Position numbers and translations under genes: made by a program
Source of the DNA: Rhabditoides inermis
Lineage: Eukaryota; Nematoda; Chromadorea; Rhabditida; Rhabditidae
Length of the DNA stretch: 64,000 nt
Assembly: GCA_963966185.1 (NCBI GenBank)
Contig: CAWZYM010000277.1
Coordinates: 124,001 to 188,000 of the forward strand
Reading direction: 5' to 3'
Part shown: in pieces, positions 14,370 to 63,988 of the stretch
How the letters are laid out: the number at the start of each line of letters is the position of its first letter
Position numbering within the stretch: position 1 is the first letter of the stretch
The notes under the pieces: generated by a model
Databases searched by the model: none
What the model saw: only the letters and a program-made list of their open reading frames with translations
Told to the model about the DNA's origin: nothing

Positions 14370-17300
14370 CACCGTACCTTTTGATGTAGATTGTGCTGCG
14401 CGTGTGTCTGTCGCAGTGGTTCGAGTCGTTCACGCCGATGTGGCCGATGATGCACGAGGTGCTCGAGACGTACGCCCGAGGAATGGAGGTGAGGAGGAAG
14501 AGAGAGAGAGAGAGAGAGAGACGATGTGGTTACTATCGTTGTTCAGCTGGACGCGTTCTGGTCGGTGGTTGGCGAGGTGCTGGAGGAGGTGAACGCCGCG
14601 GTGCGCGAGGGAAAGAGGAGCGAGCTGCCGCCCGCCCTCTCGCACCTGCTCAGGGAGCTCCTCCCCGAGCTGCACGTGCACGGAGAAGTGAGGTGAGGAG
14701 ACAAGTTGTATAGCACCGTGGTTGTGAAGTTGTGATACGATCATGCATTGAAATGGTCTGGTTCCAGCTGTTTCGTACTACGTTATGAAACATGTCATTG
14801 TGATATGTGTTCTGCTTTTTCAGATACTCTCCGTACCGCCTGCAGCTGCTCAAGTTCCTCGTGAAGATTGCGGATTTGGCAGAGAGGCGAACCAAGGTGC
14901 TCTCGCCCATGTTGCTTGACATATATGAGTGAGTCGAACTAGTTTTCATTAGTATCTTATCTCTTATCTTCAACTACAGAAAGGACTACATGCGCCAGGA
15001 GAACTCCGTGGAGGAGATGGGACAGGAGAATGAGGAGGAGCAGGAGAAGGAGGAAGATGCAGACAAGGAGGATGAGAAGATGGAGGAGGACGGAGAAGAG
15101 GAGGAAGAGGAGGAGGAGGAGAAGAGCGGCAAGAAGGGCGGCAAGAGGCTCGGAGTCAAGGAGGTGAGAGTTGGATCGGGTTTGGGAATACAGTGTCTTC
15201 TGCAGACTGTGCGCTCTCTGTGTGCCTACCTGGAGATCTACGCCAAGTTCTCCAGTCCCGTCAGTGTCTATCTCGCACCCAAGATTCGCGAGATGTACGA
15301 TGAGGTGCGTTGTTTACTTGTTTATCGGTTGGTTGTTTACATGTTATTTTTCAGCTGTTGATGGCGCCGTACGAGGAGCTGCAGACTGTCGTACTCAAGT
15401 GCCTCTTCACCTACAAGAACAAGAACCTCAATCCGTACAAGTGAGTAGAGTGCTGTAGGAATGGTACTGTATTCTGTGTATGATGTACTCGCCTGTATTG
15501 CAGGCCGAACTTTGAGAAGCTGACGGACGAGAAGACGTTCTTCGGCGAGATAGTCATGTTCGGTGTGGACGACGACTACGAGGTGGTGCAGGAGGAGCAC
15601 AGACAGGGGCTCATGCCCGTTGCGCTCAGGTGAGAGAGAAGGGAGTGGAGAGGGATTGATTGACTTGGAAAACGGAGTTTTTCTTCTACAAAATTGTAAT
15701 TCAGTTTTCGTAGCGTCTTTAGTCTTTTTGGTGAAACGTATTTTGTATCGAATCCATTTTTTTACATGTATTATTGTTTTTAAAATGTGCGTTACAGGTT
15801 TATGTACGGGAAGCTGTTGATGCGTGTGCCGCGCAAGGTGTCGCACCGTCGCTCGAAGATCTTCCAGTGGCTGGCCGGCTGCCGGGGCGAGGAGCTCAAC
15901 GCCTTCCTCCGCATCCTCTTCCAGCCCCTCCTGCCACTGTTAGGTGAGTTTTTTGCGGTGTGTATAGTTATTTTAGTGTAATCATCAGCCACACATGCAT
16001 TGTGGAATCACAATTTTTTTTACCATGACAACTTACTATGATACTTATTCTTACGACATTATTGAGTGTTCTTTCCAGACAACGACGACGACTACCCGGC
16101 TGTGGTGGCAGAGTGTGAGGACGACGATATGCTCGCCCGCTTCCCCCTCGTCAAGCTCAAGAGGTGCGTGATTTGTATATTGGTGTACTGTAATCAATAT
16201 TTTTCATCGCGTTTTGATATATGCTATTACACGTATGCGACAGGGATGTGTGTGAGTTGTAGATGTACCCGTGTGAGAGAGGGGAGGGGGATGATCAGAT
16301 GAGTACGAGTGGTAGGATGATGATGATGCTCCACGTGGTGAGACGGGCGAGGGTGGCACGCGGCGGCGCTGCGCACGTGATTAGTTGCGAGTGCGGCAGG
16401 TAGACCTGAAGAATTATATTTATCAGTTTTTTTTAAAATAAGTTTTATGTGGAATGTAGTAAGGGCTATGAGAGATATGTTTTAATTTATCAACGGAACT
16501 CTCTTGCTCATTTACCCTACACCCAATGTGAATTGTGTGTTTCAAGCTCTAATGTAGTTGTGGTAACTAAATTCATGGTTTGATGATTTGCGTTAACCGT
16601 GTCCACTGAATATAATACGTGCACTGATTGTCTCACCTCTCGCACTGTGTGCTTGTGCGGGTCGTGCTGGCAGTAGACGTCGGAGAGGGGCAGGGTGGAT
16701 GAAGAAGAAGGGGAAGAAGAAGAGGAAGAGGACGGGGATGAGGAGGAGTGGGACAGCCGCAGCCAGTCGCTCAGCCACTGCATTGAGCAGTCACAGTGCA
16801 GCGGGTTGCCCTGTGGGAGGGATGAGATGAATGGAGGGGGATTGCGGGATGTATACGTTTCACGTTAATAGTATGATCAGCTATGAGTTTTAAACTCAAT
16901 TCTCCTTCGGTAAAATGTAAGCAAAACATACGGCGAGGTGCAGTTCCTGTAGCACCGTGCCATGCTGGTTGACGACGGGCACGGCAGTGTTGCGGAACGG
17001 GTGGAAATGGGTGAGGCGGTTGTGCGCCAGGCGAAGCGACAGGAAGTTGACGCCTACAAGCTCACAACAATTTGATCACATACCACTCTCACCCCTCACC
17101 AGTGAGCGTGTTGAAAATGGCGGCGGGGAAGGTAGCCAGTTGAGTGTGCTCGACTGCCAGCTCGACTCGATAGCCGCGGAGCAGGTAGAACGCGCCAATG
17201 TCGATCTGAAAGTACCTGGGTAATACCTATGCTACCCGATGCCACTCACGTCTCTCAATCTCGCGCCGGTGACTGTGAGGTGTCGCATGAGTCGCATGTC

Positions 17301-20300
17301 TGCGCGATGCAGCTGCGTGTCGAGTATGTCTTCCACAATCTCCACGTGCAGGTTGGAGAGTGGCGGGAGGGCGGCGATGATGTCGGACACGTTGTACGGC
17401 CGAGCGGTGGACACGCCGTGCATCTCCAACTCGCGCATGTTGGTCAGCTGCGACCACGAGTGTGCCTCTGGCAGACGGACGAGCGCGTGCAGAGAGCAGA
17501 GAGACAGCTTCTCGAGCTGAAATGCAACGTGATGGACCGTAGTCGTACCGATGTCACCTGGTAGAGCGTCTTGAAGTGGGCATCGGTGAGGTGGGTGAGC
17601 TGGTTGCCGGAGATGTTGAGGTGCTTGAGATCGTGTAGATCGGCGAACGCGTCGGTCGGCAGCAGCTGGATGTTGTTGTACGCAATGTCCAGCTCGGTCA
17701 GCTTGGACAGCGGAGAGAGATCGTGCCGCGACATGTCGAAGATCTTGTTCCTGAACAGAATTTCATTTCAACGAATCATATCTATTGTTTTGTTAGCGAC
17801 TCACTGGCTAATATTGAGCGATCGCAGTCCGCGCTGAGTGAAGCGAGGCATGGAAAAGAGTCCTGTACTCGCCAGATTGAGTGATTGAATGGAAGGGCTG
17901 ATGAGCTGAAAACCAACAGTCTGAATAGTAACGTTGATTGTGAATAGTCTCACCGAGAAAGCTGCGGGATTCCACGTGGTTATGGGATTGTTTGATAGAT
18001 CGAGATGTTGCAGCGCGGGAAGATGCTCGAATGCGGCCTCCTCAATAGAGTCGATGTGATTGTGGGAGAGATCGAGATGCGTGAGGTTGCGCAGTCCGGA
18101 GAAGATGGCAGAGGTGATGGATGTGAGCTGGTTGTGCGCCATGGACAGACTCGACAGCGAGTTGGCCACCGAGCCGAGCGAGGACAGCGGGAACGAGGAG
18201 AACTCGTTGTGCGCGAGGGACAGCGAGAGCACGTTGTTCTTGCCGAATGTGTCCGAGTGCAGCATGATGAGCGCGTTGTGCGACAGGTCGATGTGGTGCA
18301 GCAGGTCCTGAACGGAGATGGTTTCCGGACAAGCAAAACACTGACATACCTGTGTGCTGAAGGTGCTCTTCCACACGTTACGCATATGGTTGTTGGAGAG
18401 ATCGAGGTGCGTGAGCCGGGGACAGGCGTGGAAGGCAGTGGTGTGCACGTCCAGCAGACCATTGTGGGAGAGGGAGAGGTAACGGAGCTGGTCAAAGTCG
18501 CGCATCGTCTCTCGACCGATAGTCTGCAGCTCGTTGTGGGAGAGGTCCAACTTGAGCAGTGATCGCTTCACACACGAGAGCTCGAGACTGCAAACATACC
18601 CTTTACAGACCGGATTATCATATCGGTCTACCTGGAGATCCTATTGAAGGAAACGTCGAGATTAGTGATTGTCTGCGCGTAGCTGAGAGACTGACAGTCG
18701 AATGAACGAAGGTTGTTGTTGCTCACATCAAAGATCTCAATGCGATTCACCTGAACGAAATATAAACGACAACAAGAAATGATTCCTCACTTTGGAAAAG
18801 GCGTCTCTCTCAAGGTGCTCCAGTTTGTTGTGATGGAGGGAGATGATCTCTAGCTGCGGCAGGTTAGTGAAACTTCCCGGCGCGACGCGAGTGATCTCGT
18901 TGTTGGACAGGTCGATTTGCTTGATGTTCTTGAGATCGGCAAACGTCTGAAATGAAAGGGTTTGCACTGTACCCGTGTTCTCTCACTAACCAGCGGTCTC
19001 ACTGCGCCGATCTTGTTGTGGCTGAGGAGCACCTGCTGGATGTTGTCGAGCTGCGAGAAGGCTCGAGTGGACACGTAGTCGATGTTGTTGTGTGCTAGGT
19101 TGACAGATCGCAGCTCTCCACAACTGCCAGTGTGGAACGTCTTGTCGGTGATGTTGGAGATGCGATTTCCGGAAAGAGAGAGCCGCTCGAGTCGCGCCAT
19201 TGTGCCGGCCGAGTATGGCGGGAGTGTCTCGATTGCGTTGTTGTCGAGCACGAGATGCCGCAGCTTGCTCATCTTGGTCAACGCGTTCTGCGGATATTCG
19301 GAGAGGTGGTTGTTCTGAAGAAACAGCGACTCGAGCCCTGGTAGCTTCTCGAACGCCCGGTATCCAATCTCGTCAATCCGATTGTAGGAGAGATCGAGAT
19401 AGGCAAGTGCCGTCATGTAGAGGAATACAGCAGGGTCGGCAATAGATCGCAGGTGATTACCGGCAAGGTTGAGCATCACCAGCGACGTCCCTGATCCATC
19501 AAAGGTGCCAAACGCCAGTTTGTCGAGTGAGGAGATGCGGTTCTTGGAGAGATCGAGGTGCTGCAGCTTGGACATTCCGTTGAGCATATCAGATGGGATG
19601 GCGGAGAGGTGGTTGTACGCGACGAGCAGCTCGGTCAAAGTGTTCTTGGTCTGCGACATGATGGACGCGTCGAGCCTACAACAGAAGTTGATATCAATGA
19701 TCAATGATAAATACGTATTCAATAATTCAATGAACTCACTCGTTGAGCTTGTTTCCGTTGAGGTTGAGATGCGTGAGTGCGCGTAGCTCACTGAGCGCAT
19801 CCGGAAGCGTGTGCATCTGGTTCTCCTCGAGGTTGAGCTTGGCGAGGTTCTTGGCAAAATTGTTGAACGCGCCGGCGGGAATGTGGACGACTTGGTTGTA
19901 GGAAAGGTCCAATTCCCGACACTGACTCACTCCAGAGAAAGCACGTGCGTGTATTTTGCCAATCTGAAAAGAAGCGATGAGCAAGAGTGTTTATGACCGG
20001 ATGACTTGCACTTGCACTTGCTTGCCAGATGTTCAAAAAGCCGTACCTGATTGTAGCTGAGATCTAATTCCTTGAACTTGCGGAAGCTCTTGAAGGAGGC
20101 GTTGGTGAGCTTGCGAATCTTGTTGTTGCGCAGATTGAGCTTGAGCTCGTTCTTGAACAGTATCTCATCATGTCCGTCCAGTGATGTGATATTGTTGCCT
20201 TCGAGGCTGAGCGACTGTATGGACGAGAGGTCCTGGAGAGCGAGGTAGGGAATCTGTAACGACTTGTTCATATCGGATTCCCGTGTGCGGTCACAGATTG

Positions 20301-23300
20301 CGCTGTGTATCGGGTATCACATGCTGCGGAGATCGGTGATCGCGCTGTCGCGTTGTGAGACACGCAGTGTGTGGGTGAGAATTGTGAGGATGGCGCGGGC
20401 CGCCTGCGAGTGATTGGCAAGTGAATGTGACATGTTGATGGGCTACGAGCGCGGCGAGTTGGCAAGTTGATGAGAGGATTAGGAGCAGCGGATTGTGTTA
20501 CCTGGATATTTGCGCCCTGTGGCTCAGGGCTCTCCCCGGCACAATGAGATTGCAATTGCAACGGAATGCGCACAAGAAGAAATCGAGGCGGCGGTGTAAT
20601 GTGTGAATAGACAGCGCGCGCTGACACAGCGGAAAGAAAAGAACTCTCGCCTTGTCCAACAGGTTGTTCTTCAAGTCGAGAAAGCCGAGTGAGGGCGGAA
20701 GGGAGAGCTTCTCCAACTCGCTGATGCGGTTGTTGGAGAGAGTGAGCACGATGAGCCGAAGGCGGTGGAACGAGAGATTCGGGATGAACGTGATCTGGAA
20801 ACGAAAGTATTAGTTGGTGATATGTTTGCAAGAATCCCACCTGGTTATGATCGAGATGGAGGAACTGTAGATTGTTGAGCTGTGTCTCGTCGAATGTGTT
20901 GGCGCGCACATGCGTGATGCGATTGTGTTCGAGGTGAAGGAACTGTAGCTGGCTGAGATAGGTGAGCGACCACGACGGAACGACGGACAGGTTGTTCTGC
21001 TTCAGGATCAGCTTGTACAGGCGCTTCTGCAATGTTGTGTGTCACAGCGGTCATCTCAAACTGTCCCACCTCGAGTCCGCGGAACGCGTTGACGTTGACG
21101 GTCTGGATGTGGTTGTTGGTGAAGTCGAGTGTCTGCACGTCGTGCTGCTTGAAGCCGTCCTGCTGCAAGTTTGTCAGCGCGCCGTCCGTGATGGACAGGG
21201 CGAGGATGGTGGTGGGAGGGCGGCCGCCTCGGGGGGACGGGTCGTGCGGCAGAGGAGGCACCGTGTCGACCGACAGCCCCCGGCACATGACGTGCAGCGA
21301 GTGCGCCACGCCCGATGGCAGACACTCGCATTCACGCCAGATGGACGAGATCGGGAAGGGAAAGCTGAAAGTGAACGGGGTGCGAACGTGGAATTGTTGT
21401 GGACTCACTTGCACTGTGTCGTTGATGCCGGGGCATCATGGAGCCATTGTGCGTGGGCGAAAGACAGGAGGAGTGTCGACGAGAGTAGTAATGTGAACAT
21501 CATGACATTCTGAAAACACGTGGATGCGTTGAAACGTATTACGAATTGAATGGCGCATGATGTTGCAACGCGAGAGCATAGTGTGAGAGATGAAATGAGT
21601 CAAGCCCCGGAGGGTGGGGAAGAGTGATGAAGTGGGGTTAACAAGTATACAACATGGCAGTGGGAGACGCGGAGAGGGAGGAGAGAGAGAGAGCAGGAAA
21701 GCATGTCCTGGGATATGTGGAATGAGGAGATGGTGAGAGAGAGGGTGTGTATGGGATGGGATTTGCGAATTTTGAGGGAAGAGTAGGGGAGAGAGTCAGC
21801 TGGCGAGTGGGAACAGCGAGAGTCGCCGAGGGGGGGAGGAGAGAAGAGAGGGTGTTCGCATGTTACATTGCCCTCGCCAGTTTATCCCATTTGATGAGAT
21901 TAATGAGATAAGCGAGGGTGCACCGACAGCGCCGGTCAGAGAAAAAAGATTGTGATTGGTGTTGTTTCCGGTGAGAAAGTCGGTGGCAGGCCGCAAAAAG
22001 TGCGACTGCGGTGGCCGCCGAATGGTGTGCTCTCACATTCGAGTCGTCTTTTGATGAGGAGAGGAAAGCAGCTGTTGGAGCGATTGGTTATGTGCGCGAG
22101 TGAAGAATGTTGGAATTTGGAATGGGGTGTGGCGAATGGACAGGTAATGGGGTAGGCAGGCAATGTGGGCAAGAAGACAATTGGGATTCGACACGCGTTC
22201 GCCCTCTAATGAAGGGCGTAATGGAGCCTCCGAGGAGAGGAGAGGGGGGGGGACAGTATGGGTGGTCCTTGAGAGGTCTTTAGACTCTTTCGGTCATTGA
22301 CGGGATTACAGTGGATGTTAATGACAGATGAGGGTATGTTTTGAGAGTAGTGGGAATTGAGGAATTGAGGCAATGAGCTGTTCACACGAACGCAGCGAGA
22401 CACGAAGAGAGTACAGCGGTTTATTGAAGCAATCATATGGCGGATGGGAAATGACTCGGCAGAAGTGTGGGATGGATATGCAGAGTAGTGTAAACATTGT
22501 ATGAAGAATAAGATATAGGCGACGAGAGATAACATCTATTATTGTCGCGGCGAGGCGCTTTTTGAAAGTGAGCAAGAGGAGACGAGTTACATGTGGCGGA
22601 ATTGGATATAAAAAACGCGATACACAATTGAATGTGTAAAACGTGGGAGGGGTGGCGTGTAGATAGGATTGAGGAAATAGAATAGGGTTGAGTATGCGAT
22701 ACGCATACACACACCACTGAGTGAGACAGGCGCGGGGGATAGCCCTTGTGGTGGGATGGAGAGGTGTTTGGGGCTGGAAGCCAAGTGGAGCGGAAAGGGG
22801 GGAAGGAGAAGGAGATGTGAAATGGGATACAGACGGATATGATGATGATGGGATATGAAGAGAGGCTCTTGGCTCCGGTGGCGAGAGTAGTGTACGGTAT
22901 GTACGCTGTGATTTACAATGTGTGCTATTGCGCCACAGGTGAGAGGAGTTTGTCAGTGAGTGTATTAGAGGTGGGTTATGGAGTTATGACCGGGGTGGGG
23001 TGAGTGGCGCGAGGTGACGGCTGTCGCAACGCAGAGGCGCAGAGGTCAACGAGACTGCACACCGGATGGGGCGATTGAGTAATAAGAGAGCCGGCAAGAC
23101 AATTGCCGTCGATGGCATGTCTTTTAAAGTGCAAGGAAGCGTTCGCCTCATGAATTTTTGACGACAGAAGAGAGGACACGCTGATTTGCGTCCTTTGGTT
23201 GGTTACAGAGTGTTTGTCATGTTGTGTACGCTCAGCTGTTGCCGATGGGGTTTTGAATAATTTATTCGCAGCTAAATGCGAGTGTGGGAGCCGCCGTGTT

Positions 23301-53879: not shown

Positions 53880-54262
53880 TTAGTACCCGAGATTCCAGTG
53901 GACGTAGCACAGCGGGGCACTAGGGTTCTGCTGACAGTAGCTCATGGGGTTCTGTTTGAAGTGTCTGCAGAGTGGATAATGAGCCCGCATGTCGTCTTCA
54001 TTACACCAGTATTGCTTGAATCGACACTGTGGGTGGTGGGGCAGACGGCGGCAGACAATCTTCGTAGGCAGGAAGTCTGACTTGAACCTCTGACACTCGG
54101 GCCAGTGCGGGAACTTGGCGCAGTGCTCTGTCTCACCTGAAAGGGCGGATCTCTCTCTCTCTCTCTCTCTCTTCACTTACTTGTGGAAGGCATGCCTTGC
54201 TTGAAGTATGGTAGAGCCGCGAGGGAAAGCCCACATAGGGAGAGGAATGGTACGAAACGCAT
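53880..54262 (-). CDS. Secreted cysteine-rich protein A (112 aa)
   Basis: The two exons are 54262-54181 and 54136-53880, joined in phase 1, stop TAA at 53882-53880. The signal peptide is MRFVPFLSLCGLSLAALP, followed by YFKQGMPSTS. The mature part has paired cysteines eight residues apart (CAKFPHWPEC and CRRLPHHPQC), then CRFKQYWC and a C-terminal pair near the end, so disulfide-bonded and secreted. A TATAAAA on the - strand at 54316-54310 lies 48 bases before the start codon. The tandem neighbour at 54499-55228 is a paralogue with a nearly identical first half. I do not recognise the family; the loose Cys-x8-Cys pattern and tandem copies are seen in nematode secreted proteins. Exon 2 begins GTGAGA, itself donor-like. 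Confidence 0.8.
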
Positions 54263-54498: not shown

Positions 54499-54904
54499 TC
54501 ACAACTTCCAGTAGTGCAACCAGCAAAGTGACTTGAGGGGGTTCTTCCTACAGTACTCGTCAGGATGACTCTTGAAGGCAGACTGCGGCCTGCCGCGACA
54601 ATGAGTGCATCCCTCGAACCTGGGCCAGTTCTTGAAGCTCTTCTCCATTGACTTCTTGCAATACGGGTTGTTGGGGGCGATCTTGCAGAGTGACATGATA
54701 GGACGCATCGCTAGGTCGTTCGACGTCTGCTTGAATCGACACTGCGGGTGGTCGGGCAGATGGCTACAGACAATCTTCGTAGGCAGAAAGTCCGACTTGA
54801 ACCTCTGACACTCGGGCCAGTGCGGGAACTTGGCGCAGTGCTCTGTCTCACCTTAAAGGGCGTCTCTCTCTCTCTCTCTCCTCCTCCCTCCTCTCTCTCT
54901 CTCC

Positions 54905-55228: not shown

Positions 55229-55908
55229 CGACGAATACGAATGACCGCCTTCTTCTTCACACCACTCTTTTTGATATCAAGAGAGTGCCCCTCATTTGAA
55301 TACGTCTACACTGTACAGTAGTATAGTTGTATAGTGGTGTTACATCACTAATACTAATGTCATAATAGCGACAGTGTCTTTCCTTCGCTCAGGCAACGGG
55401 CACATTGACATGAATACAATGACAATGCCACAAACACGTGTATATAGTTCTATGCTCGCAATAAGTTGCGCGCGGTGGGGTAAATCAGATGAAGACGGAG
55501 AGTCAGCTCACAGCAATAGCGCGCCAAAAACAAGAGAGGCAGACGGTCATGGCACCGTAATTCGAACTGCAAGCGAGGTAGATCGAAAACTATCGCTCTG
55601 GCGCAGGCTATAATAACATCATGATCATTTGATAGAAAATTTTCAGGACAATCCACCTGCTTCTGGGAGTTCTTCACTGTGTCTACTGCCATCTTCTCTA
55701 CAGTACAGTACTCATAGCCGATATGGGGATTTATGGGAATCATTCAACAATCGATGGTCCACTCGTTCATAGGTGATTCACACGAGTCATCGGATATCGA
55801 TCATTGTTCACGTGACAATCACCTCATTCTCCACCCCCTCTTCCCCTCTTTCCATCATTTCTCCACCCGACCCTTCTTTTCCCTTTCCTCCATCGTCATT
55901 CCTTCGAC
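55229..55908. other. Upstream region of the fusion gene
   Basis: Between two divergent start codons (55228 on - and 55909 on +). It holds copy 2 of a dispersed repeat at 55441-55604. No clear TATA box for the + gene was seen. Confidence 0.5.
55441..55604 (-). repeat. Dispersed repeat, copy 2 (inverted to copy 1)
   Basis: The reverse complement matches 49814-49974 almost end to end with scattered substitutions and small indels. Confidence 0.85.
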
Positions 55909-56002
55909 ATGCGTCGTCCCGGATGGCGGTGCGTTCACTTTGTTGTTGTGTTGCACATCGGTTGTGCTGGTCCTATTGCCACACCTTCCATCCTCGACCT
56001 GA

Positions 56003-56062
<60 letters not shown>

Positions 56063-58616
56063 CTCTCTCTCTTCTCTCATCGCTCTTCGCCTAGGCTCCT
56101 TCTGCTTCTTCTCATGTGCTTCTCATCTCCCGGCGACACTGCCCCTCCCCAAGAGTTCATCAAAGATCTGCAGAAGAAAGGTAGATCGTTATCGTAGGTA
56201 GATCGTAGAAAGGTAGAAAGGTATCGATTGATTATCGATTGCTATCAAACGCTTGGGGTCACAGCGCAACACCCGTGTCGTGATTTCGAGACGAAACAAT
56301 GCAGCGCGTTCAGAATTCTAGAATGTGAGAAATGAGTGGCGTGATTGCACGCCCATGCAACGAGCGCGGACTGTGATTTCGGGATTTCTGACGTGCAACA
56401 CATGGTATAACGCTGCCGTTCATTCGGGATTCGCTAAAGCGATTGTTCTGGATCGCGCGTCATTTCGAGACGCCCGCATCCCACGAACAGCCCCCTCTTT
56501 GCCTTCTCCATTTGAGACGAATGTGAAATGAGATAAATGATGACGTAATCGAAACGAATTGCATAATTTTCTAATTGTCACGCGCCCACCGGTCGCTTCA
56601 TCTCGTCAATGCCGAATGAACGGCGGCGGCGTTGTTTCGGGAAACGCGTGGCGTGATGGAATGACGGCCCATTCAGCGCATGACAGTCATACATTTACCA
56701 GACATCATTTGAGACATCCATGTTTTCGGATTAGACTCGGTTAGTTTTCTCGATAATGTAGAAAAACCCGACTTTAACCAGACCATTTTGAAGGATCAAT
56801 CTTTAAAAGAAAACTGAATAATCCGTGAGTCGTTAATTCGGACGCGGAGTTTTCTAATTTTTCAAATATTTTTTTTAAACATTTTCACCTTTATCATTTA
56901 TTTTTACACGCTTCTGAAGTAAAAGATTCAAAAATCGCAACAAAAAAACTGATTTGCGAGTCGACTATGTATGTTGTTCTTATTTAGAATGTCCCCGCAG
57001 TCCTCATCGCGTGTCGATAGTGGAAGCTCTTTCGGAGAGTGCCGACTGGCAGGATAGGCTAGTGCACATGGCGGCGGAATTGTACAAAATGAAGGAACAC
57101 GGAACGCTCTCCAATGAAACACTCCACCAAGTCGTCAAGGTAAGACGTAGTTCTACCAACACAGTTAACAAATACTGTAAAGTATGCCTACGGCGTGCTC
57201 AATACTGGCTATCCATTCGACAAGATGCTTCGTGAATTCGAGACACAACTGGTTTGTTCTCAAGTACACTAAACTACAATACTCATTGATTCAGGAAACA
57301 TCTCGAGTGATGCCAATTGTTTTGGGTATTCTCGCATGCGTCAGTGCGATTTCGATCATTGGTTATGTGATATACATGTGTATCAAGAAGAAATCTGCGA
57401 AGATCGTGAGTACAATCATGGGGTAAGTAAAAAGTACAAGATACTGTTTAGATTCCGACTACCGTCACCTATCCTTCAAAGAGTGGCTCTCCATCGAACG
57501 TCGTATCCATTCCTATGCTCTCGAAAGATCGCTCCAAAGAAATCCTAATATTGAAGGTAGTTGGTAGCTAATGGTAGCTCGAGCTACTGTAATATTGTTT
57601 CAGATTGGTATTGCCGCTCTCTGTTTGCTTCTCTTGGCTACGATTTCTATGGCGGTTGTATGCATCATGGCTTTCTTCCACACTCACGACAAGATTGCCG
57701 CACAATTTGTGAACAACATGAATTCGGAGATAGACAGTACGTTTAATCAGTAAAATATGGATTATAGTATTTGTGTAGACGTCTTTGCCGAAACCTTCGA
57801 CATTATGTGCGTCGTTAGGAACACTATCGAAAATCCCAAGACGAATTTGTTTGACGCTATAAGTAGGAAGTTTACACAGCAGGTATGTGATTAGGGTAGA
57901 AATTATGTAAAATATATTTCAGAAAAATGAGATGGCATCACACCTTTTGAGCCTAGCCGATCCTCTCAAGATCACGGTAAAATATTAGTAACAATTTCAA
58001 GTACGTAAATATGATATTTTTAGAACAATGTCGTGGCTCATTTCGACAATTTGGTGGATATTGATAACAATTTAGTTCTTCCTACACAGCAACTCAACGT
58101 GTGTTATTCACTTGTAACAAAATCAGTTCAAAAATGTTTTTAGAACAGAGCAAAGAATCCAGTTTACAATTTCCCGACTATTATAATCACGCGGAGTACA
58201 GAAATACTGAACTTTGCTCAAACGGCTGCGTCATTCTTCGAATCTCAGCGAAAGACTGTCAGTGTAGATGCTCAGTGAAAACGTTAGTGAGCATGTTTCA
58301 GAGTAGCACCACAAACATTCACCATCTGCTTACGGCGAACAAAAACGAATTCAAAGCGAGAATATCGAGTGTGCTATTTCCTATTCAAAATGATGTGCTC
58401 ACGAAAAAAATGCATAACGAGTTGTACGAGATCGAAGAGGAATCGAAGCACATCAAGACCTATTTCCACAAGGTTTGCATATACGAATACAGTTGTGCAC
58501 ATGATTATTCAGTACGTCATTGCTGATTCAACTTGGAAATACATTGCAATCGGGTTATTGAGTTCATTCGTTGTCGCGTTTGTTCTAGGCATTGCATTCT
58601 ACCTAACACCTGGTCA

Positions 58617-58705
<89 letters not shown>

Positions 58706-61700
58706 CATTCTCATGAAAAAATTATTCTAGTTCCTCCAACGATTATACTACTCATGTCGACCATCTTCTTTCTTATGATGATCGTCCCGTTATTATACAT
58801 ACCGTAAGATATGTTTGAAAACATGAAACCGATAATAACGTTTAGAAATGTCATGGACTTTGCAAATACAAGACAGCTCAGTTGTAACTACTTCAAAGGA
58901 AACGCTGCAGCCGCAGCGAAAATATTGAACTCTATAAACAAAAGTTTCTTCCAGAGAAACTACATTGGGTGAAAAATAGCAAAACAAGTATCAAATATAA
59001 TACTTTTTATTCAGTGAACTGAGTTGTGATACAGCGAACCCACGAAATGATTTCGAAAGCCTGTTCGATCAAAGTTTGACAGGTACCATAAAAATGTAAA
59101 CTTGAAAACTGAGTAATTATTATTACCAGATCTGCATTCTCGTCTAACTCCGCTTTCTACTAAATTCGAGAAAATCGCAGTGGATAATTTAGAGGAGAAT
59201 CTAAAAATCATACCAGTAGTTATTTTACGTAAAAACAATGTTTTATTGCACATTTTAGCCTTTGAAAAAGCGCTATCACGAAATGGATCAAAAAATGGAC
59301 ACACTTGTGAAACAATGCGGAACATATGAATCAATTGAATGTATCCAAATAGCTGACACCACAGTTACGAACAGAATAAAATCTCTCACCGATTCTTTGA
59401 ACACCTTCAATGTATGTTATCGTTTTATAATAAATACAAAAGTTGAGTAAAAATCATTCAGAAAGAGTGGAATTGCCAACTGAACTTGATTTCGTGTAAA
59501 AACCTGAATGTTTTTGACAATCTCACCGATTCGTTGACGAACTCTATGAGCAACACTGGAATGTCGTCCTTATTGAAGCCTGTCCACGAATCCATCACAA
59601 ACGTGAAGGTAACAGACATGTCCTAACAACTCATAAACAACACAATTCTCCAGACTACTCTTCTGAAAGCGGTCAATGGATGTGAATTGCCACGGATTTA
59701 CACAAATGTTCTAACAAGAGCATGCGATCAAACCAAGCCATTTTACCTGCTGCTAATAACTTTCTGTCAGTTTGTTCAACCTATATTTATATAGTACTAT
59801 GAATTTTCACAATTTCAGATATAATTATTGCTTGTCTCTGGATGTTCGGTGTTATTATAATTCTCATTGGAAAACTGAGAACTTTCCAGCCACCGAAACG
59901 CATTAAAGGAATAACAGAAAAGGTAAACATATTTCTATCAAAAATTATGTGAGCATGTTTCAGCGAGAGCTCAATGTTGAAAATCAGTCAAAGTTTGCAA
60001 ACAGTGTCGGAATTTCACTGGCAAGTAACATCGTGCAATATCAAAACTATCAAAACTTTAAGGATTGTATTGCGATTGACCCGAAGAAAACCTATGAAGA
60101 TTTCATGAAATTATCGGACAAAGAAACATCCACGCAGAAAAGCAATGTTTCGAACAGCAGAGTGGAATCCAAATCTAAAAAAAGGTGGAAGCGAAACGTT
60201 TTCATTTGAAACGACTTTGTTTTCAGTGAGCAATCATTTGTTCAGTCTACGAAGGTTGATTTGGGATGGCCAGAAAACAACTTCAACGGAAACTGGGTTA
60301 TTCCTATGGGCAATTCGCACAAGTAATCAGATGTTACTACTAGGGTTTTGCAAAATGTCACATTCAGATACATTATGACGGCTGCTCCTACGTTTGCAAC
60401 TGCGGTTGACTTCTGGCATGTGGTATATCGATACAACTGCAAGGCGATTGTCATGCTATGTGACTTTGTGGAATCGGAAAATGGTCAACCTAAGGAAAAG
60501 TGCTTCAAGTATTGGAGCGAAAAGACAAAACTCACATTCCAAAACAAGTTCGCCAAGTATACTGTAAGTTTATTCAACCGGAATCGTCATACAATTTATT
60601 GAAGGTCAAATGTACGTCTGTCAAAAAGTCGCTATTCAACAACTTGAAACATGTTGTGCTTTCCGTGTCCAAGTAAGTTATATAATATATTCAAAACTAC
60701 AACATGTCAATTCAGTGGCTACATGAAGAAAGAGATCGAACTGATACAGTACACTGGTTGGCAGGACTGCCTCGCGCCAGAAAGTCCGGAAGAGTTGGCA
60801 CATGTGATGAAGACGTTATACGAAGATATCGGAAAGACTAGCGAGCCGGTGGTGGTGCAGTGCGCTGACGGGCACGGAAGGAGCGCCGCCTTCGTCGGTA
60901 CGAATAGAGAGGCAGTTCTGGTCTATGTGATTTAGGAATGGATGTGCTCTTGTCTACAGTGAATGCTGATTCCAATCCCGAACCATTCAACCTTCTTCAG
61001 GTATGCTCAATCAGACAGTTTACTGAACTCAAATCATTCTTTCAGACGATGCGTCTATTCCGAGCAAGCAGTTTCACTGACAAGTGGCAGTACTACTTCT
61101 CTTTCATATGTTTCTTCCAGTTCCATATTATGGTATTGGTTTCGATTACTATTGTGATTGTTTTCCGTTTCAGAACAAGTCTTACGGTCCGAGTTCGAAG
61201 ATCTACTACTATCTCACTGAGAAGAAGGCGTCGTTCGTCGAGAAACTGAAAGCGGCCACGTCTACTGAGAACCGTGCAACTTTCCACCAAAGAAAGGACC
61301 AAGTCAAAGAGAGCTTCAAACAGTTCCAGAACGCTAAAGAAAAGAAAATCAAGAACAGCGACGATGGCAAACCGAGCGATGAAAAGGAGCGGGTAGGACC
61401 ACAACTAGCATATATATTGTACCTTTAAACATGTATAGAACCTGTCTGGTACCAATCTGACCGGGTGCAATTACGATTACTCAGTGGGAATGCTACTCGG
61501 AGCAGGCACCTTCGGACAGGTCTACCAAGCCAAGAAGGGAAAGCAAGTGTCCACGAAGCACAGAACGAAAAGGAAGCAGGACATGTCTGACACGGATATG
61601 GACGTGGAATATGCGGTCAAGACAGAGAAGAGGAACACTGCATGTGGTTCGCTCATGGTGCGTTATTGTAGAAAGACATAGTTCGTGAAGCTAATTCCAG

Positions 61701-62959
61701 GCGGAAATCTATGTTCTCATGGAAGTCTCAGCTCATAGCCACGAAAACAGAAACCAGATTGTCCAGTTCATTGATAAAGGTATGTGAGTTTTAGTTTTCG
61801 AAACTTCAGAATAGTGTGATTCTAGGTCGCACTGAGAACTTCGATTTCATGGTCATGTCTCTGGTCGGAAAATCTCTGTCCACAGTGCAACGTTTCACGA
61901 CCACCAAGCTCAAGTAACATGTGAAGCTCTGTCTGAAGTGATCTATTCGATTTCAGTTCCTTCTCTGCCATGTACCTCACTATTCAATCGTTCAACGCCA
62001 TTCATCAGCTGCACCAGTGTGGATTCATTCACAGGTCAAATTAGCTGTACAGAACATTTTTAGCGAACTGTTTTAGAGACGTCAAGCCTGGAAACTTTGC
62101 GATTGGAAATGCACCAAAGGAGAGGGTGGTGTTCGTTCTCGACTTTGGCATGGCCCTGACGAGCTTCGATGACGATGGAAAAGTCATTCCTCGAAACGGA
62201 AAAGAGAAGAGCTTCCTCGGAACCATGCGGTATTGGTAATGTGGGAGGCTTCGTTATAGATACGGCTTAGATACGCTCCGCGCGCCGCCCACGAAATGAA
62301 CATGCAACATCCTCGCGACGACATCGAGTCTTGGCTCTACATGAACATCGAGGTATGATGCTCAACAGGAACATGCAATGTGTCAACCGACATCCATATT
62401 TTTCCACTCAGATGTTCCAAAAGCTGCCCTGGAAAGGCAACATGGACAGAAACGTTGTTATGCAAGGAAAATGCGATATGATGGAGGGAAAGTGTGAGTA
62501 TCGAAATATTGAGGCATTCAGATAATTCTGAATTATAGACTGGCAGAAAATGGAAAGCGAAGGACTTCCGATCGCATTCCAAGCTCTCATCAAGTTAGTA
62601 ACCGGATAAGATATTCATGCATCGCATTGTTCAGACTGATTGTTGAAATGAATCCGCACGATGTGCCCGACTACCGAAAGCTGATGCATATCATGATGGG
62701 AGCCGAGTGCGATTACAACGTAAGTTAACAATCATAGTATAGTCCGCAAAGCTACTGTTCAGTTGGATCTCGATTGGGTGTCGAAAACCACCAAACTTCA
62801 CGAGCAGAAACAGTACGAGGTTCGTAGAATCGAGAGAGAGAGGGGGGGGGGGGGAATTTAACATTTGCATACTGGGATGTTCAGGCGCAGACTACTCGTG
62901 CGACCTCTAGGGATATCAAGGCAATGGCGGCCAGTTTCGCATCTCAGAAGAAAAACTAG
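55909..62959 (+). CDS. Prominin-like pentaspan / tyrosine phosphatase / CK1-type kinase fusion (1,427 aa)
   Basis: Thirty-nine exons with GT-AG borders join in one frame from ATG 55909 to TAG 62957-62959. Exon 1 (55909-55928) and exon 2 (56095-56180) make a signal peptide, MRRPGWRLLLLLLMCFSS. Residues about 36-86 are extracellular; TM1 is about 91-112 and TM2 about 160-182. A large extracellular loop runs from about 183 to 380, followed by TM3 (383-405), TM4 (414-434), a second large loop (435-664) and TM5 (666-685). That is the topology of prominins. A cytoplasmic PTP domain (about 780-1004) and a CK1/TTBL-type kinase (about 1090-1400) follow. Phases agree at every one of the 38 junctions. 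The alternative of three genes would need hidden stops or promoters that I do not see. The protein would sit at the plasma membrane with both enzymes inside. Confidence 0.85.
55985..56085. repeat. (CT)n microsatellite
   Basis: A CT run in the first intron of the fusion gene, before the acceptor CGCCTAG at 56094. Confidence 0.9.
58621..58698. repeat. (TA)n microsatellite, about 39 units
   Basis: It lies in the intron between the TM3 and TM4 exons and makes up most of that 118-base intron. Confidence 0.97.
60227..61132 (+). other. Part: protein tyrosine phosphatase domain
   Basis: Exons 22-27, residues about 773-1004. Landmarks in order are GWPENNFNGNWVIP, YIMTAAPTFATAVDFWHVVY (PTP motif YI.A..P), CKAIVMLCDFVESENGQPKE, CFKYW, the loop GWQDCLAPES with Asp910 in the WPD position, and the P-loop VVVQCADGHGRSAAFVG with Cys942 and Arg948. 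A final helix is MRLFRASSFTDKWQYYF. The usual His before the catalytic Cys is Gln941, and the WPD Pro is Gln909. Both changes may alter rate, but Cys, Arg and Asp are kept, so activity is plausible. Confidence 0.85.
61439..62819 (+). other. Part: casein-kinase-1/TTBL-type kinase domain
   Basis: Exons 29-38, residues about 1078-1403. It has a Gly loop LLGAGTFGQVYQA (1096-1108), Lys1138 in YAVKTEK, IHRDVKPGNFAIG (Asp1233, Lys1235, Asn1238), LDFGMA (Asp1254), RYAPRAAHE in place of APE, and the CK1-family DDIESWLYM...LPW block. These match the nematode tau-tubulin-kinase-like branch of CK1. A basic insert KKGKQVSTKHRTKRKQ lies between the Gly loop and Lys1138. All catalytic residues are present. 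A charged linker of about 73 residues (exon 61174-61392) joins it to the phosphatase. Confidence 0.9.
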
Positions 62960-63283
62960 AGACACCTCTCCCACTAACATCACACATAACACTTAAAATT
63001 CTTAAACTTAATCTTACTCAGTTTTAAACTCGTTTCGGTGTCACTTTGGGGAAAAAATGATGGGCTTATAAGGAAAAGTGATATGTTTGTAGAATAAAGT
63101 GATGAAAAAATAACGTCTCTGAACTTGTGTGAAAGTGAAGATGTCGAAAACTCGCTAATACAAATAACATAATTTACCTCACTGGTATGTAATAAATAGT
63201 TTACCATGCATACATCGTAAATAACAAGAACTCAAGATCAAGAATCATGCATAACAATCAATAACTGAAGCAATCCCACGTAT
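62960..63283. other. Convergent 3' UTR region
   Basis: Between the fusion-gene stop and the stop of the - strand gene. AATAAA at 63093-63098, 134 bases past the stop, is a likely polyadenylation signal of the fusion gene. Confidence 0.6.
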
Positions 63284-63988
63284 TCATTTGAAGTTGGCAG
63301 TCAACGACTGCAAGAGATCCGAGGGAGAAGTGAACGAGGGTATCGAAGCCACCTGAACCCATTTGTCTCACTTCCTTCTTCCCCCTCTCTCTTTCTCTCC
63401 CTCTCTCTCCCCTCTCTCTTTCTCTCCCTCTCTCTCCCAGTCTCTCTTTCCCTCTCTCCCCTCTTCCCTTTCTATCTCCCTCCTACCTGATTGTCTCTTC
63501 CAATCGGTCGACGCTGGATCTGCGAAGCGAGAAGCGAGAGGTGAATCTGAACAAAAGCTTACGTCTTTATTGTACAATGAGTCGCTTCCCTTTCTTGTCT
63601 CATATCAGCTCTACGACAGCTTTACAGGATAAGCTCATAGGATTAGGGTGGCTCATAGGGTGGCGTTGCGTGGCTCATAGGGTGGCGTTGCGCATTATAA
63701 CAATCATCCACTCTTCGTACTTGGTACTGTTTTACTCTGACAACCTCCGAAACGCTACAAGGCCAACACGCACTAACATTGTATGTACATGTCCGAATCA
63801 GGCTGATAAACAAACAAACAAACAAACAAACAACCAGAACCACGCACCCTCATCTCATCGGCCATCGCCTCCCGTTTGGCGGCGTCTCTCATCGAGAGGC
63901 GGAGCTCGCACACACTGTCTCTCTTGTGGACAGAGACGCAGAGGGACACGCGCTCGCGAAGGGAGCGACGGAGCACCTGCAGGGACAT
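63284..63988 (-). CDS. Unrecognised gene, 3' exons only
   Basis: Three exons in phase 0 can be read: 63988-63848 (begins MSLQVLRRSLRERVSLCVSV and ends DAAKREAMADEMR), 63519-63487 (IQRRPIGRDNQ) and 63352-63284 (VASIPSFTSPSDLLQSL then TANFK and TGA). The protein is basic and helical with no signal peptide or membrane segment visible. The ATG at 63988 is preceded by a GA tract that could be the end of an intron, so the true start may lie outside the window. I do not recognise the family. The middle exon is short, and its position in the gene is less sure than the outer two. Confidence 0.5.
63375..63480. repeat. CT-rich microsatellite
   Basis: CCTCTCTCT/TTTCTCTC tandem blocks in the last intron of the - strand gene. 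Confidence 0.9.

Follow-up and report, generated by a model that had tools for sequence, protein, structure and literature searches.

Receptor-type protein tyrosine phosphatases (PTPs), such as RPTP epsilon, sigma, alpha and LAR, consist of a membrane anchor followed by a PTP domain. They cross the membrane once, and in many cases contain a further PTP domain, D2. As a rule, kinases and phosphatases are distinct proteins that scaffolds bring together. The subject of this study is a locus of the nematode Rhabditoides inermis that may depart from this arrangement. It occupies 55909-62959 on the + strand of a 64,000-nucleotide stretch of DNA (the window), which lies in contig 277 of a 172.6-Mb genome assembly with 599 contigs. 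The original prediction, made from the DNA letters alone, was that one gene here joins a prominin-like five-span membrane protein, a tyrosine phosphatase and a CK1/TTBL-type kinase. We assign a probability of about 0.52 to the reading that 55909-62959 is one gene, encoding a five-pass membrane protein with a PTP domain and a tau-tubulin kinase (TTBK)-like kinase in tandem on its tail.

Like the receptor-type PTPs, the predicted fusion protein has a membrane anchor and then a PTP domain, but the anchor has five segments and a kinase stands where D2 is often found. Prominins (CD133, and F08B12, M28.8 and M28.9 of C. elegans, as described in an excerpt of PMC3108902) likewise span the membrane five times in this order, with a pair of large loops outside and the tail inside. 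Their large extracellular loops are about 250 residues long, compared with 206 and 231 residues here. Unlike prominins, the fusion protein has no match to the family profile, no cysteine-rich first intracellular loop and, instead of a short tail, an enzymatic one of 745 residues. The kinetoplastid 'kinatases', as far as they are covered in the excerpt of PMC2175518, resemble the fusion protein in having Cys-based phosphatase and kinase domains in one polypeptide. They contain a dual-specificity phosphatase, two pseudokinases and leucine-rich repeats, whereas the protein described here combines a classical PTP domain with a five-pass anchor and a kinase whose motifs are intact.

Exon chain and junctions

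The gene model was obtained by joining exons on the + strand of 55909-62959 with GT-AG borders and matching phase. The resulting chain has 40 exons and 4,347 bases, equivalent to 1,448 residues plus the stop (1,449 codons). Every border is GT-AG and in phase, and the exons contain no internal stops. The introns are very short with ends of the TTTCAG type; 36/39 are 38-65 bases long and the remaining three are 118, 166 and 807 bases. All exon coordinates quoted in the original prediction fit this chain, although its totals of 39 exons and 1,428 codons including the stop do not. The codon difference would be explained mostly by the omission of exon 57183-57251 (69 bases, phase 0), which was absent from its list of first exons. 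The continuous reading frame that it proposed through the membrane part, phosphatase and kinase was borne out.

The case for a single gene was examined at the junctions between the three parts. Exon 21 (59819-59922) encodes the fifth transmembrane segment (TM5, residues 685-703) and the beginning of the cytoplasmic tail. Intron 21 (59923-59963, 41 bases) separates the membrane part from the phosphatase. It is followed by exon 22 (59964-60184), encoding the juxtamembrane segment, and exons 23-28 (60227-61132), encoding the PTP domain. Intron 28 (61133-61173, 41 bases) lies between the phosphatase and the charged linker of exon 29 (61174-61392, 73 codons). Exons 30-40 (61439-62959) encode the kinase domain, which belongs to the casein kinase 1 (CK1) group and is TTBK-like, and the stop codon. 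The junction introns are 41, 42, 41 and 46 bases long, which is within the 38-65 base range of the 36/39 and favors one gene. The splice sites of intron 21 also favor one gene, since its donor and acceptor each outscore 98% of decoys.

Coding potential was compared between frames. Exon 29 scored +19.0 in the joining frame versus -13.5 and -11.4 in the other frames, and exon 22 scored +7.5 versus -20.7 and -12.9. The background was generated from same-length windows on the minus strand and on the plus strand from 1 to 55900, real genes included. Of these, 934/119,464 were stop-free and equaled or exceeded the score of exon 29, and 7,667/119,620 did so for exon 22, taken over its first 47 codons. 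By these counts exon 29 lies far outside what chance would give, and exon 22 exceeds it only modestly. Because exon 29 codes in no frame but the joining one and lacks an in-frame ATG, its start codon must be upstream of the exon.

Signals for transcript ends and starts were also examined. The earlier statement that the junctions lack a polyadenylation signal is right for AATAAA, which is not found between 59429 and 63093. In 55500-63600 this hexamer occurs at 59375 and 59429 (an exon and an intron of the second extracellular loop) and, past the stop codon, at 63093 and 63191. The copy at 63093-63098 (+ strand), 134 bases past the stop, is the candidate poly(A) signal of the gene. A promoter scan of 59800-61500 found 5 candidates versus 3.6 expected, but the patterns were bacterial only and the scan is thus uninformative here.

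It is doubtful, though not far-fetched, that the locus instead contains two or three neighboring genes (one each for the membrane part, the phosphatase and the kinase, or one of them covering two of these parts) in the form of tight, trans-spliced cistrons, with a break at 61133-61173 or 59923-59963. Such genes would be separated by gaps of only 41-46 bases, compared with operon gaps of 89-838 bp in nematodes other than C. elegans, according to the excerpt of PMC1657053, and AATAAA is not near any junction. Several features of the two joins nevertheless suit separate genes and weigh against a single one.

At the first join the splice sites are good on both sides. If intron 21 is left unspliced, however, the frame of the membrane part stops at 59950-59952, and two bases past this stop an ATG at 59955 shares the frame of exon 22 and of the entire phosphatase. 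Since this ATG opens the exon 22 frame, a separate phosphatase start is possible. The claim of a single gene must be qualified to this extent: the anatomy favors it, but the suspected break at 59964 has an in-frame ATG just upstream. The earliest in-frame ATG within exon 22 is codon 768, the 48th of the exon, and M768 is possible as an alternative phosphatase start since the Pfam match does not start until residue 794. Among the three poly(A) variants searched, the sole site near a junction is ATTAAA at 59902, in the TM5 exon.

At the second join the donor of intron 28 at 61133 outscores only 58% of decoy GT sites, and the acceptor (TTTCAG) outscores 100%. This combination resembles a trans-splice acceptor located after an unspliced phosphatase gene; with intron 28 unspliced, the phosphatase frame continues for 38 codons to a stop. 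On the other hand, a separate kinase gene is difficult to begin. Beyond M1025, with which exon 28 ends, intron 28, exon 29 and intron 29 contain no in-frame ATG, and the earliest one in exon 30 is M1116. A whole separate kinase would lack an ATG start because M1116, the first in-frame ATG, is inside the first strand of the kinase, and exon 29, which is coding in the joining frame, has none of its own. The two joins are therefore opposite. The first has good splice sites and an alternative start, the second a weak donor and no alternative start.

The 61133 donor is the weakest among those listed for the junction introns and sits next to a very strong acceptor; the site could be a point of alternative splicing.

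Base composition differs along the chain. Third-position GC rises from 0.50 in the five-pass part to 0.58 in the phosphatase and 0.63 in the kinase, which is compatible with separate origins. According to the excerpt of PMC6906410, artificial gene fusions accounted for more annotation error in Pristionchus pacificus than any other cause and may affect up to 15% of models. A gene-model script run with zero splitting cost broke the chain within the phosphatase domain, at 60326/60375. When splitting carried a small cost, it kept 56616-62959 whole, using other first exons, and 35/40 of its exons were those of the chain. We felt that the script was indecisive because its whole-window run merges too much.

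Protein databases were searched for a relative with the same domain order. These searches require shared exact five-residue words and a query-like length, and can miss distant relatives. Among candidates in the whole protein's length class, 2/6,169 of those scored matched: receptor phosphatase C from a fish and a protein that combines kinase and EF-hand domains. Neither has the same order. The phosphatase-kinase part gave nine matches, and the precomputed Pfam lists assign a PTP domain to none of them. The earlier remark that no described protein is known to have such architecture agrees with this result, since none of the same order is present among the scored candidates, a lack that also counts against the single-gene reading. 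In the open-licence literature, among the matches listed, there is no paper on a prominin-phosphatase-kinase protein or on a nematode phosphatase-kinase fusion protein.

A further reading is that the locus is one gene with several products, in which the full three-part protein is minor. The main products would then be shorter forms, such as a membrane phosphatase or a free phosphatase-kinase, made by retention of intron 28 or from a start at 59955. The weak 61133 donor, the in-frame extension to a stop if this donor is unused, and the in-frame ATG at 59955 are all consistent with it. We consider it improbable: the extension past M1025 is rich in arginine and does not clearly look like the end of a protein, and a whole free kinase again has no ATG start.

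The least certain part of the single-gene model is its start, exons 1-2 (55909-55928 and 56095-56180), which encode the start codon and a signal-peptide-like N-terminus (residues 1 to ∼22). Exon 1 has only 20 bases, the acceptor of intron 1 outscores just 76% of decoys, and intron 2 is the one with 807 bases. The gene-model scripts picked other first exons, and a script divided exon 30 in two. If a piece of the chain is mispredicted, such as exons 1-4 or exon 30, the true N-terminus or the first strand of the kinase would be different. We regard this as very improbable as an account of the locus, since the remainder of the chain is independent of exons 1-4 and exon 30 and no exon has an internal stop.

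Phosphatase and kinase domains

The PTP domain of the original prediction was recovered by Pfam as Y_phosphatase (PF00102) at residues 794-1018, with an E value of 6.8e-43 and 147.4 bits against a cut-off of 20.9. The best solved relatives are of the receptor type, namely RPTP epsilon (E 1.5e-29), sigma, alpha and LAR. Alignment indicates that C963 and R969 of the CX5R loop and the general-acid residue D931 are retained. In the surrounding motifs HC is replaced by QC and WPD by WQD.

Two differences count against the phosphatase as a working enzyme. In an alignment with one relative that has two PTP domains, the KNRY loop is missing and the Q-loop VQ is replaced by FT, with loss of the glutamine. 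The KNRY loop serves in phosphotyrosine recognition. Since this loop and the Q-loop glutamine are missing, phosphatase activity is uncertain. The domain may be weak, selective or chiefly a binding domain. Judged by its residues, this part of the protein is a PTP-fold domain and not a proven PTP.

The kinase, proposed earlier to be of the CK1/TTBL type, matched Pfam Pkinase (PF00069) at residues 1112-1389 (E 1e-17, 64.9 bits against a cut-off of 31.7). Its top eight matches in the PDB are TTBK1 and TTBK2 (E 1.2e-28, 7.8e-26), which are the best solved relatives and are followed by CK1. Alignment with relatives indicates that the catalytic motifs are kept. The glycine loop, K1159, the HRD motif at 1252-1254 and the DFG motif at 1275-1277 are all retained, and to judge from these residues the kinase should be active.

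In the database search with the phosphatase-kinase part, 9/3,573 scored candidates matched. All nine have kinase domains, 2/9 are named tau-tubulin kinase, and 4/9 are from nematodes (Pristionchus, Trichuris twice, and Bursaphelenchus). These nematode matches, together with the very short introns and their TTTCAG-type ends, fit a nematode origin of the DNA. The best match of the kinase is P0003 from Pristionchus fissidentatus. Unlike the protein described here, these nine kinases stand without a PTP domain in their Pfam lists. Compared with three of the nine, the kinase has a long basic insert ahead of the catalytic lysine.

The five-pass membrane part

The N-terminal part begins with the signal-peptide-like sequence and continues with five hydrophobic segments, as determined by hydropathy. 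Exons 3-4 (56988-57251), which are joined with GT-AG borders and in phase, encode the N-terminal extracellular segment. Exons 5-7 (57295-57736) encode TM1 (117-135) and TM2 (184-202), with the 48-residue first intracellular loop between them. Exons 8-12 (57779-58472) contribute the greater part of the first large extracellular loop (residues 203-408). TM3 (409-427) and TM4 (435-453), separated by a 7-residue turn, are in exons 13-14 (58513-58803). Exons 15-20 (58846-59765) encode the second large extracellular loop (454-684), which contains eight cysteines. With TM5 this topology leaves the tail inside. The second loop also has N-glycosylation sequons, at N487 and N619; a further one, N78, precedes TM1, and the first large loop has none. 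Intron 13, between membrane segments 3 and 4, is mostly a long (TA)n tract (58619-58698), and CT repeats are abundant in the non-coding DNA around it.

The description of this part as prominin-like holds for the topology of five spans and two large outside loops but not for the Pfam prominin profile, which has no match. PF05478 is not listed at E ≤ 10 for either the whole protein or the N-terminal 736 residues. An exon-by-exon search of the whole genome with PF05478 gave no match at E ≤ 0.001, although this search, being made exon by exon, is insensitive, and its 14 control genomes had no hit over the cut-off. No convincing relative of the N-terminal part was found among solved structures (best E 1.3), and no homologue of the five-pass part was found among the 7,995 best-scored database candidates. 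A cysteine-rich first intracellular loop was not found, as residues 136-183 contain one cysteine (C138). The corresponding loops of three Xenopus prominins have 7, 4 and 8 cysteines, as given in the excerpt of PMC3108902.

With no profile match, no homologue and no cysteine-rich loop, membership in the prominin family was not upheld and only the topology was kept. The membrane part is at most a prominin-shaped scaffold and is not classed as a prominin.

Proposed role and surrounding sequence

If the locus is a single gene, its domain order suggests a division of labor along the protein. The five-pass part, with its two large outside loops, would position the tail at a particular membrane patch, probably on a protrusion, and gather it into clusters there. 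The membrane-proximal phosphatase would strip tyrosine phosphate from neighboring membrane or signaling proteins, or bind these proteins if it is catalytically weak. The kinase, held on a charged linker of ∼80 residues, would phosphorylate serine or threonine residues of cytoskeletal or signaling proteins at the same membrane site.

A PTP removes phosphate from tyrosine, and a kinase of the CK1 group is expected to phosphorylate serine or threonine. Because their target residues differ in this way, the phosphatase and the kinase need not share a site. The earlier suggestion of opposing enzymes is not supported, as the two likely act on different residues. The protein would rather link the loss of a tyrosine signal to the gain of a serine/threonine signal at one membrane site, acting as a converter and not as the reversal of a single modification. 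Our tentative reading, which we place a shade below an even chance, is of a receptor that turns tyrosine-phosphate signaling into serine/threonine-phosphate signaling at a single membrane patch. It would be built like a receptor phosphatase, with an intact TTBK-like kinase in the place of the second phosphatase domain.

The most likely setting for such a fusion protein is nematode sperm, by analogy with the TTBK-like kinases SPE-60 and SPE-6. Both act in sperm, and SPE-60 is located on membranous organelles and is required for pseudopods, as reported in excerpts of PMC12436626 and PMC8527485. The same excerpts describe kinases and phosphatases as over-represented in nematode sperm.

If this reading is true, a kinase and a phosphatase are fixed one-to-one in a membrane receptor, and the hard-wiring of tyrosine-phosphatase and serine/threonine-kinase signals becomes testable. 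It would also show how new receptors can arise by gene fusion from the large kinase and phosphatase sets of nematode sperm. Human CD133, a prominin, is tyrosine-phosphorylated and is dephosphorylated by the receptor PTP PTPRK, according to the excerpt of PMC6487712. The PTPRK-CD133 pair and the covalent joining of a prominin-shaped part to a phosphatase here form an interesting parallel, but no more.

The rest of the sequence was searched for related features. There is no paralogue of the gene within the window; outside 55800-63000 the sole match at E ≤ 10 covers 25 residues with an E value of 3.3. The 52,685 bases of flanking contig contain no paralogue at E ≤ 1, and no RNA family reached its gathering score in the window.

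Just upstream of the predicted fusion gene, 54060-54140 and 54780-54860 are near-identical by eye and look like tandem copies of a short gene on the minus strand. Another minus-strand start with a signal-peptide-like sequence is found near 55230. Farther away, a crude 17-exon model at 16517-21503 on the minus strand encodes a 1,137-residue protein that, by eye, consists almost wholly of leucine-rich repeats.

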